From contig NZ_CAMHSK010000033.1 of the NCBI RefSeq assembly GCF_946187725.1, positions 1 to 34,613 on the forward strand: 34,613 nucleotides of DNA. The letters run 5' to 3'. This DNA comes from an uncultured Treponema sp. (GTDB lineage Bacteria > Spirochaetota > Spirochaetia > Treponematales > Treponemataceae). The position numbers were made by a program, and so were the translations under genes. Below the pieces are notes generated by a model. That model was not told the origin of the DNA. It saw only the letters and a list, made by a program, of their open reading frames with translations, and made no database searches. Numbering within the stretch: position 1 is the first letter of the stretch; every line of letters starts with the position of its first letter. Below are positions 711-3,808 of the stretch, piece by piece.

Positions 711-745
711 TGTGTCAGCACATTAAATAAAATAAGGAGTAAATT

Positions 746-2965
746 ATGGAGTTAGATGCAGAATTCAGAAAAACCTACAAAAAAATCATTGTGGCATTAC
801 TCACAATTAATAATTTCACTGTTGATTATTATGAGACAAATGAAAATCTTCGTAAGATTATATTGGAATTTCTTGATGATTCCTTTTTTGAAAGATTCAC
901 AAAGAAGCAAGATTTATTAAAGGCTGTAACTTCGAAGAATCTCGATAATTCTTCTGATGAAGAAATATTGGGGAAGGCACATTATTTAAATGCCAAAACA
1001 ATCAATTATCTATTTTATAAGCAGACTTCATTATTCTCGTCTCTCACAATTGAAGAGAAAAAATGCCTCCTGATTTTGGATTTTTGTAATCATTCATTAC
1101 TTTCAAATATCTTCTTTTCAAATGAAATTGCCTTCCCCTTACACGATTTTTACAAGGTTGTGGAATTTGTTTTAGATATTAAGCCAAAGAAATTTAAGGC
1201 AGCTATGACAGAAGCTTCAAAACTTGAATTAGTTGATTTTAACGAGTCTGACGAGGTGTTAAATATCAAAGATATAAATTATAACGAAACAGTGCTTTCC
1301 CGCGAATTATACAGATTATCTGAAATCCCACTGATTGAAAGATTCAACTTAGAAGATTACGAAGTTAGCGGAAATAATTCAGAAAAATTATTCTCAGAAC
1401 AAAATCTTGTCACAGTTACAGGAGAATGCATTACATCATATATTTTTTCAAAATTCGAAAATGAAAAAATCCGTTTTTGGTATGCCTCAACTATAAACAA
1501 ATGTATAGGCCTATTACGATTGTTCAATCATTGTGACATAAAGGGGCAATACATCTGGCTTGATAATTACGAAGAGGAAAATGCATATAGAGAAAAAAAA
1601 ATCTTACAAATAGCTAACCATATAGAAGCAAAACTTATCGTATCAGGACACGACTTATTTTATCCATTTGCGAAAGACTGCATGAAAATTTCACTCAAGA
1701 ATTCTTGCCTTGAAAGAAAGGTTCGTAAGCTCTTCCCTGAAGAACTGGCACAAAAAGTTCTATTCTATATGAAAAAAATCGATTCAACTGATGAGATAAG
1801 GAATTTCATATCTGAAATCGATTCATTGGCAAAAGATACAAGTCAGGAATTTGCAATGAAGAGTCTTCCAGACTATTTTAATATCGTTGACAAAAGTCTG
1901 AAAGAAGATTCTTCAAAAGCGGAAGAGAAGAAGGAACCAATTCAAACTGCTATTAGAGAAGAAGATTTTAAACGCCGGTATGATATTTATGAAGGCAGTG
2001 TTGAAGATAATCCAGTGTTAAGCACTGAATATTCAAAGATTATCAGGATCTACAAAAAACTTATGGCACCTGCCGCATATTTAAAAGCTGACAAACAGAT
2101 GTTTCAAGGTTTAGATGCTTTAATAAACAAACATCCAAATCTTCTTGACAAAGATTTATTATCAGCATTTTTGAAAAATGCAATTCTTTTTTCAAAGGAT
2201 TCTATTATAAGTCTAGAACCCCTGTTACTGGTCGGGCATCCTGGCTGCGGAAAGTCTTTGTTCTGTCGACAGCTTCGTGAACTTTTCAAACAGGATAATG
2301 ATATTTTTATTCCCCTCGGAAGCGGGTTAGGTGCAGATGCCATCATGGGCTCGACTCCTGATTACAAGGCAGCTGAAAACGGGAAGGTTCTCTCTTCGGT
2401 TTGGGAATCAATGAATAACATCAATTGTCTTAATCCTCTCGTTGTACTTGATGAAGTGGATAAGGCTTGTCTAACATCAAAAACATCAGATCATAATCAA
2501 AATCTCTTGCCTTCACTACTTCAGCTCATGGGCGATGAGAATCGTCGTCATTTTACAGACAATTTTTTTGACGTCCCATTACAAGGATTCTATCCGAATT
2601 TTATTGCCACTGCAAACAGTTTGGAATATATACCAGAGCCTTTATTAGATAGATTTAATGTCATAGAATTCCGAGACTATACTAAGGAAGAATTTGTTAA
2701 TAATGTCATTCCAGCTCAATATGAAGTGTTCAAGGATTCGCATAATAATCTTATTCCAGAAAATCTTACCCAAGATGAAATTGAAATTATTTACAAGATA
2801 AGCAAAGGAAAGACAAGAAAAATTCAACCTGCGATCAATAGGTATGTGGCCTCCATCTTTGACTTTGAAGGTCAGAAACATCAATTGAATGCAACTGAAC
2901 TTGATAATCTGGTTGAGACATCAAAAGTTGTTTGGGAACCCAGACAAATCGGTTTTTGTAAATAA
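746..2965 (+). CDS. AAA+ ATPase with Lon-like ATPase module, no protease domain
   Basis: The 739-residue protein starts at ATG 746 after AAGGAG. The C-terminal third is a complete AAA+ module: Walker A GHPGCGKS (497–504), Walker B LDE (568–570), sensor 1 Asn624 in FIATANS, arginine-finger candidate Arg636 in LLDRF, and a sensor-2-like GKTRKIQPA near 688–696. The order and wording of FIATANSLEYIPEPLLDRF closely follow Lon proteases, yet no Ser-Lys protease domain follows; the protein ends about 50 residues after sensor 2. Residues 1–480 match nothing I know; they are mostly helical-looking, with a stretch (about 220–330) that could be a degenerate second P-loop fold. It is cytosolic, with no signal peptide. 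The A+T-rich composition and flanking gene fragments suggest horizontal acquisition. A remodelling or defence role is possible but unproven. Confidence 0.88.
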   Translation: MELDAEFRKTYKKIIVALLTINNFTVDYYETNENLRKIILEFLDDSFFERFTKKQDLLKAVTSKNLDNSSDEEILGKAHYLNAKTINYLFYKQTSLFSSLTIEEKKCLLILDFCNHSLLSNIFFSNEIAFPLHDFYKVVEFVLDIKPKKFKAAMTEASKLELVDFNESDEVLNIKDINYNETVLSRELYRLSEIPLIERFNLEDYEVSGNNSEKLFSEQNLVTVTGECITSYIFSKFENEKIRFWYASTINKCIGLLRLFNHCDIKGQYIWLDNYEEENAYREKKILQIANHIEAKLIVSGHDLFYPFAKDCMKISLKNSCLERKVRKLFPEELAQKVLFYMKKIDSTDEIRNFISEIDSLAKDTSQEFAMKSLPDYFNIVDKSLKEDSSKAEEKKEPIQTAIREEDFKRRYDIYEGSVEDNPVLSTEYSKIIRIYKKLMAPAAYLKADKQMFQGLDALINKHPNLLDKDLLSAFLKNAILFSKDSIISLEPLLLVGHPGCGKSLFCRQLRELFKQDNDIFIPLGSGLGADAIMGSTPDYKAAENGKVLSSVWESMNNINCLNPLVVLDEVDKACLTSKTSDHNQNLLPSLLQLMGDENRRHFTDNFFDVPLQGFYPNFIATANSLEYIPEPLLDRFNVIEFRDYTKEEFVNNVIPAQYEVFKDSHNNLIPENLTQDEIEIIYKISKGKTRKIQPAINRYVASIFDFEGQKHQLNATELDNLVETSKVVWEPRQIGFCK

Positions 2966-3196: not shown

Positions 3197-3613
3197 TTAG
3201 TCGCCGTTGTTGCCGCCATCAGTCTTTTTATCCGCAACGGCAGTTTTTTCAAAATGAAGATCATTGAACTCATTTTTGAATTCGCTGCAACAACGAAGAA
3301 CTACGCGAACATGGTTTATCGAGTTTCCTGTCACATCCTCTTCCTTCTCCTTGCCGTCTGACTTGAAAGTAAGGCGGAGAATTCCGAAATCACCAAGTCG
3401 GATGCTGTGTCCTTCCTTGAGCCATACAGGAAGCATCTCGATGAACGAGGCCAGCACCGCACTTACATCAGCCAATGTAAGCGTGCTGTACTTGCTTATC
3501 TGCTGGGCGATTGTACGAAGCCCCACCTCAGTTCCCCAGACAGGCTGTGCATAGTAAAGAGGGGCTGCCTCTTTGTTGATTGGGTTTGCTCTTTTTACAA
3601 CTGAATAATTCAT
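3197..3613 (-). CDS. HU/IHF-family DNA-binding protein (HU-HIG type)
   Basis: This 138-residue protein starts MNYSVVKRANPINKEAAP, the hallmark opening of Bacteroidetes-type HU-related proteins. It continues with a YYAQPVWGTEVGLRTIA segment, a helical stretch (TLTLADVSAVLASFIEMLP) and GHSIRLGDFGILRLTF, which corresponds to the HU beta-arm region. It should bind DNA as a dimer and act in nucleoid architecture or at specific elements. ATG 3613 is chosen over an upstream in-frame ATG (3670) because GGAG lies just before it and homologues begin there. The C-terminal tail is charged and Gly/Asn-rich. Its terminator is at 3142–3181. The 5' end abuts the remnant of a plus-strand gene, as if the HU gene had been inserted into it. 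Such genes are often found in mobile or accessory regions. Confidence 0.85.
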   Translation of the reverse strand: MNYSVVKRANPINKEAAPLYYAQPVWGTEVGLRTIAQQISKYSTLTLADVSAVLASFIEMLPVWLKEGHSIRLGDFGILRLTFKSDGKEKEEDVTGNSINHVRVVLRCCSEFKNEFNDLHFEKTAVADKKTDGGNNGD

Positions 3614-3619
3614 ATTTTT

Positions 3620-3808
3620 TTCTCCATTTATGCTGCGTTTTTTCTTAATGAAAACGGAAAGGCCGTACATGTGAGCGGCTGGAGCAATGGAAAGTTCATG
3701 AATGTTTCAAGCATCGAGCCGGGGCAGAAAGGAAACTGGCGCACAGAGACAGAACTCCGGCGTTTGTATCCGAATCTGCTTATGATAAAAAGAGGGATGA
3801 AAATATGA
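3620..3808 (+). pseudogene. Orphan C-terminal tail of a lost gene
   Basis: The plus-strand frame opens after TGA 3602–3604 with no credible start of its own and reads FFLNENGKAVHVSGWSNGKF, followed by a Ser/Glu/Gly stretch and NWRTETELRRLYPNLLMIKRGMKI to TGA 3806–3808. Composition and rhythm are those of a real globular C-terminus. The first bases overlap the ribosome-binding site and start of the HU-like gene on the other strand, so the body of the gene appears to have been replaced. I do not recognise the family. Support comes from the ATGA stop/start overlap with the next ORF, a feature kept in working operons. Confidence 0.4.

Follow-up and report, generated by a model that had tools for sequence, protein, structure and literature searches.

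A protease-less Lon-type AAA+ protein with an invariant C-terminal IGF tripeptide in a small set of Treponema genomes

Motors of the Lon type are found in several described settings. LonA proteases combine a 3-helix bundle, an AAA+ domain and a lid with a Ser-Lys peptidase, and stand-alone Lon-type proteins annotated as 'AAA family ATPase', from plasmids and alphaproteobacteria, have such a motor without the peptidase. In BREX, the AAA+ protein BrxL comes with an associated Lon-like region, peptidase-inactive in most variants (PMC12839542). Clp motors hold the pockets of ClpP by loops with IGF, IGL or VGF, and a lasso peptide with a grafted IGF activates ClpP (PMC8745299). Here, we analysed a stretch of 34,613 nucleotides (hereafter the window) whose first nucleotide is base 1 of contig C33 in an uncultured Treponema genome (G000; 3.27 Mb in 80 contigs, 98%-complete), focusing on the gene of a 739-residue, protease-less Lon-type AAA+ protein at 746-2965 on the forward strand.

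This protein resembles each of these systems in part. It shares the motor of LonA but differs in having no Ser-Lys peptidase, a different N-terminus and an IGF tail. It also shares a peptidase-free Lon-type motor with the stand-alone proteins, but 12 of the 13 sampled members lie opposite to it in our tree. In contrast to BrxL, it has a Lon part that constitutes the motor; a PADLOC scan of the protein gave no match to a BrxL model, the sole match being an RtcR-type AAA at E 0.015. With ClpX, ClpA and ClpC it shares a hydrophobic IGF-type tripeptide, and its genome encodes ClpP; however, its tripeptide is C-terminal and its AAA core is Lon-type, and docking is putative. We class it as a variant among protease-less Lon-type AAA+ motors, one that belongs to a small recurrent gene module; it is not BrxL, and by the tree it lies outside the plasmid class. 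Four observations underlie what follows: a Lon motor without a protease, a conserved tail, rarity, and partner genes that co-occur with it in its relatives. We tentatively propose, with guarded confidence, that the protein serves as motor subunit in a rare accessory module of Treponema, an ATP-driven unfoldase or remodeller controlled by a STAND-like partner and degrading its substrate by docking ClpP.

The Lon-type motor and its relatives

The frame is intact from its ATG, which is preceded at a distance of 6 bases by an AAGGAG ribosome-binding site (734-739, forward strand). Pfam shows AAA/P-loop domains only, with an AAA match at residues 493-642 (E 3.6e-11), and gives no match at E <= 1 to the N-terminal substrate-binding LON domain of LonA; NCBIfam matches the ATPase of Lon (E 2e-19), and all 32 PDB sequence matches are Lon proteases. 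In a structure predicted from a 12-row alignment, the predicted local distance difference test score (pLDDT) is good in the C-terminal half and about 50 in the N-terminal half. Residues 397-728 of this model (1934-2929, forward strand) align to residues 426-751 of human Lon over 311 residues (VIA-align Z 21.9, root-mean-square deviation (rmsd) 4.0). We take this part of human Lon to be the 3-helix bundle, the AAA+ domain and the lid, ending at the start of the peptidase domain.

The ATPase motifs are complete. Walker A (GHPGCGKS, residues 497-504; 2234-2257), sensor-1 Asn624 (2615-2617), arginine finger Arg636 (2651-2653) and sensor-2 Arg691 (2816-2818), all on the forward strand, are invariant in the seven full-length homologues described below, the window protein included. 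Walker B (LVVLDE, residues 565-570; 2438-2455, forward strand), located by a motif audit and the homologue alignment, deviates slightly in two of them (DEISQ in G288, EE in G204). A GxSA[GS] motif of the Ser-Lys peptidase was searched for and is absent from all seven. Counted from the first residue of Walker A, 243 residues remain in the window protein and 239-244 across the set. Together, the predicted structure and the motifs show residues 397-728 to be a Lon motor that ends where the Lon peptidase would begin. In a functional sense, the protein is outside the Lon protease family. The sequence-only reading, which had described a complete Lon-like AAA+ core with no Ser-Lys domain, was right on both counts.

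Among 274 genomes from the Treponema family, a profile of the N-terminus identified seven with a full-length homologue (G000, G016, G149, G204, G258, G263 and G288). G145, at first sight an eighth carrier (E 4.4e-4), was rejected: the match covers 70 residues of a 727-residue protein without the PGCGK motor. In 392 genomes drawn across the phylum, the only carrier is the window's own genome, the other carriers possibly lying outside the draw. The six other homologues are 31-45% identical to the window protein, the closest being in G016. Plasmids and phages yielded Lon proteases as well as short AAA proteins of the Lon type, none of them covering 80% of the query. Of 25 loci on genome contigs and two matches on viral contigs, the sole full-length relative is L117, on a contig of a Treponema metagenome-assembled genome.

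A tree was built from 35 rows of AAA domains, including true Lons and the 13 sampled stand-alone proteins. The seven homologues form one clade (100/100). Two treponemal paralogues, also without a protease, group with this clade (98/97); one is a protein of 445 residues encoded in the window's genome (G000:C3). True Lons and the stand-alone proteins are placed elsewhere in the tree, with 12 of the latter grouped together and one among the Lons. Divergent from the gene of the 445-residue paralogue is an integrase-like gene (L033:8628-9755) with sub-threshold Pfam matches.

With 7 carriers in 274 genomes and flanking genes that, read by eye, differ from genome to genome, a core treponemal gene is ruled out, and the variable setting that the sequence-only reading had expected is borne out. 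Its description of the gene as A+T-rich also holds: G+C is 33.6% in the gene, compared to 42.4% in the window sequence to the right of it, and all seven homologue modules are poorer in G+C than their own flanks. Rarity, differing sites and composition suggest an accessory unit that has moved horizontally. An integrase gene was not noticed next to the motor gene, although no profile search aimed at integrases was made.

Partner genes at the homologous loci

A comparison of gene neighbourhoods among homologues, as the sequence-only reading had suggested, recovered two recurrent partners. The first is a STAND/ORC-like P-loop protein (482-570 residues where complete), encoded within about 4 kb on either side of the motor gene. 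Its matches are all weak: sub-threshold to nSTAND3/NPHP3_N and, in the PDB, to Cdc6 (1e-3) and a helix-turn-helix regulator (6.6e-4) with a winged helix. Across the 274 genomes, a profile of this protein matches strongly in G149, G204 (twice), G258, G263 and G288 and finds an N-terminal piece in G016, so that 6 of the 7 motor carriers have the gene. All other matches are weak; those in 11 genomes at E of about 1e-3 to 1e-4 were not counted, nor was one in G003 (8e-10) that spans about 100 residues of a 1099-codon frame. The association of the motor and STAND-like genes has a Fisher p of 1.3e-11, uncorrected for relatedness. The second STAND-like gene of G204 (G204:C79, L144:835-2391) has no motor gene among the open reading frames of the 9 kb examined around it.

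The second partner is an HD hydrolase of about 200 residues, whose gene precedes the motor gene by 17-41 bp in 4 of the 7 genomes (G149, G258, G263 and G288). It matches PDB entry 7p1y at E 4.9e-75, and MESH1 and RelA/SpoT hydrolases more weakly. All four module hydrolases retain IHDxxED and DRIxN, which we take to be the catalytic motifs of an HD hydrolase, and they can be aligned over their full length with two copies from treponemes that lie outside the modules, the HD motifs being kept. The hydrolase profile matches in 247 of the 274 genomes, usually with one copy. Since most treponemes have a copy elsewhere, the one in the modules represents an additional paralogue, probably of the characterised small alarmone hydrolase of T. 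denticola (ActSpo2 family), a link that is inferred. The module enzyme differs from that hydrolase in being a second copy tied to a motor gene.

The hydrolase raises the possibility of a stress-response unit, in which the paralogue and the motor would adjust (p)ppGpp or related nucleotides. Its position directly upstream in four loci and its retained HD residues argue for this, as does the activity of the T. denticola enzyme, which hydrolyses (pp)pGpp and (p)ppApp (PMC10434055). However, the hydrolase is absent from three of the seven loci, the window's among them, and a core copy is already present in nearly every genome; we consider this explanation improbable. An anti-phage or anti-plasmid module, in which the STAND-like ATPase would sense an invader, the motor would be the effector and the hydrolase an optional effector or safeguard, also appears unlikely. 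Sparse, A+T-rich, differently placed modules and a STAND-type partner would suit it, but no meaningful PADLOC match was obtained for the AAA, STAND-like or hydrolase proteins, the neighbours are by eye mostly ordinary genes rather than defence genes, and the STAND-like protein is short, with no long sensor region. Of the mobile or defence-island setting earlier supposed, the variable, A+T-rich, accessory character thus stands, while defence is plausible by setting only.

The window gene itself might instead be a decaying relic, intact in a genome that has lost the rest of its module. This is suggested by the missing STAND match in G000, a transglutaminase remnant next to the gene and the damaged STAND genes of G016 and G149, but we consider it unlikely: the full-length frame, all motifs, the tail and the ribosome-binding site are retained. 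Moreover, the assembly cuts the left flank 745 bp before the motor gene, and the partner may just be missing from the assembled sequence. The STAND partner of the window gene is either beyond the contig end or lost.

The IGF tail, ClpP and a proposed mechanism

All seven homologues end, after the lid and a variable linker, with IGF followed by two to four residues; in the window protein the tripeptide is at residues 735-737 (2948-2956, forward strand), followed by CK and the stop. Across the whole G000 genome, the pattern ATHGGNTTYNNNNNNTRA (the IGF codons, two residues and TAA or TGA, thus excluding other spacings and the TAG stop that ends a classical AAA gene of G000) has 23 matches, compared to 14 in the backward control. 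Frames of at least 100 codons are ended by two of the 23, both encoding protease-less Lon-type AAA proteins. The 445-residue paralogue ends RKIGFQN, and classical AAA proteins of Treponema end alike (SVIGFVA, RKIGFCA, KRIGFFA).

Treponema genomes often encode such classical proteins (L090:5013-7274 on G000:C25, L053-L067 and L091-L095), which have about 720-800 residues and, in most cases, two Walker A motifs. Nearly all of them terminate with IGF followed by 0-3 residues, and the tripeptide is mostly preceded by a basic residue. One of them, a 724-residue IGF-tailed protein of G015, is encoded beside a 480-residue protein with a Cys4 zinc-ribbon-like part and a Lon-type AAA (gene pair on G015:C3, L034:7210-10850). 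Plasmid Lon-type AAA proteins of Klebsiella and Aeromonas (L036:6239-7813 and L037:6239-7813), near restriction genes, end RRGVGFVSEGWN, a similar tail.

ClpP is encoded in all eight genomes checked, with two strong matches in seven and one in G149, and ClpX of the window's genome carries LGF. As IGF is a tripeptide by which Clp motors grip ClpP and the window protein has no peptidase, we propose ClpP docking for degradation in trans as the boldest part of the mechanism. The window protein would assemble a Lon-like hexamer, whose N-terminal region of about 396 residues may select the substrate or hold the ring under the control of the STAND-like switch; using ATP, the motor would unfold and thread the substrate. 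The invariant C-terminal IGF tails might then dock ClpP, and the threaded substrate be degraded in trans, the least certain step, which is suggested by analogy to the Clp motors. A wider claim is rather unlikely, namely that the C-terminal IGF is a new ClpP-docking device on protease-less AAA+ motors of two treponemal lineages, Lon-type and classical AAA, the window protein then driving a proteolysis module that borrows ClpP, is controlled by the STAND-like protein and is in some cases linked to alarmones.

Several findings weigh against the proposed ClpP-docking module. The known Clp docking tripeptides occupy loops (PMC8745299) and not the C-terminus, a C-terminal GF could pack inside the ring instead, and the 480-residue Lon-type paralogue of G015 has no IGF tail, though the adjacent 724-residue AAA protein has one. 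The STAND-like gene is frame-broken in G149 and truncated to 156 residues in G016; its profile finds no such gene anywhere in the 98%-complete G000, and neither it nor the hydrolase gene is beside the window motor gene within the 745 bp visible upstream. Finally, two low-confidence models and a fold search gave no fold assignment for the N-terminus.

Alternatively, the motor may be a pure remodeller acting without any protease: it would unfold a target or take it apart, possibly the STAND partner or a complex on DNA, and then release it, with IGF packing between subunits or on the partner. This is possible, if distinctly less than probable. It agrees with the lack of a peptidase in cis and with the co-occurring STAND partner; moreover, protease-less Lon-type AAA proteins, common on plasmids and in alphaproteobacteria, are mostly without an IGF tail, indicating that such motors can work without one. 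It leaves unexplained, however, why IGF specifically is invariant after a variable linker, and why classical AAA proteins of the same genus have the same ending.

If the tail docks ClpP as proposed, a short linear motif has allowed bacteria to exchange the built-in peptidase of Lon for a shared one, and many 'orphan' AAA+ proteins could be read as Clp-type motors. Even without docking, the co-occurrence of a Lon-type motor and a STAND-like switch defines a small, testable treponemal module. No paper on docking by a C-terminal IGF was found in literature searches that missed most subscription journals, and none describing the combination of motor, STAND-like protein and hydrolase was found, as judged by titles and the beginnings of abstracts.

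The N-terminal region and the flanks of the gene

Because the resemblance to Lon starts at about residue 397 and includes the 3-helix bundle, the unfamiliar N-terminus comprises about 396 residues (54% of the protein), not the 480 residues or 'two thirds' of the sequence-only reading. Its unfamiliarity was confirmed: Pfam, NCBIfam and PDB sequence searches gave no trustworthy match to residues 1-396 (746-1933, forward strand). This region, conserved in the seven homologues, consists of helices followed by an alpha/beta part (residues ~196-390; 1331-1915, forward strand) that has no Walker A in any of the seven. From the order of its strands and helices in two low-confidence models, the alpha/beta part could be a dead AAA-like D1 ring. 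Prediction and fold search, which the sequence-only reading had recommended, thus gave an alpha/beta order but, at a pLDDT of about 50, no interpretable fold. Modelled alone from two rows, the N-terminal part has a mean pLDDT of 49.6 and its fold search is headed by unrelated barrels; in the full model, double-ring Clp proteins align across it with an rmsd above 9.

A weak profile match links the N-terminus to that of the classical tandem AAA proteins (E 0.027, compared to 0.30 and 0.32 for reversed controls). Homology of the two, although appealing by eye, is not claimed at an E value this weak, and BLASTP of the window protein against the 724-residue AAA protein of G015 gave no match. Two further proteins, encoded at loci with weak matches to the STAND profile and considered as relatives of the alpha/beta part (best E 0.018; reversed control 0.11), were rejected, being histidine kinases when read by eye.

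The gene fragments earlier noticed beside the motor gene are indeed there: a 114-residue frame truncated by the contig edge (1-342, reverse strand) and a remnant of a transglutaminase core (501-710, Pfam). The suggestion that the motor is a remodeller working with the left-edge gene was not upheld. That frame has no match in 58 other genomes, including G016, the carrier of the closest homologue, and was rejected as a partner. Directly downstream of the motor gene, at 3197-3670 on the reverse strand, is a gene for a DNA-binding protein of the HU-HIG type (Pfam).
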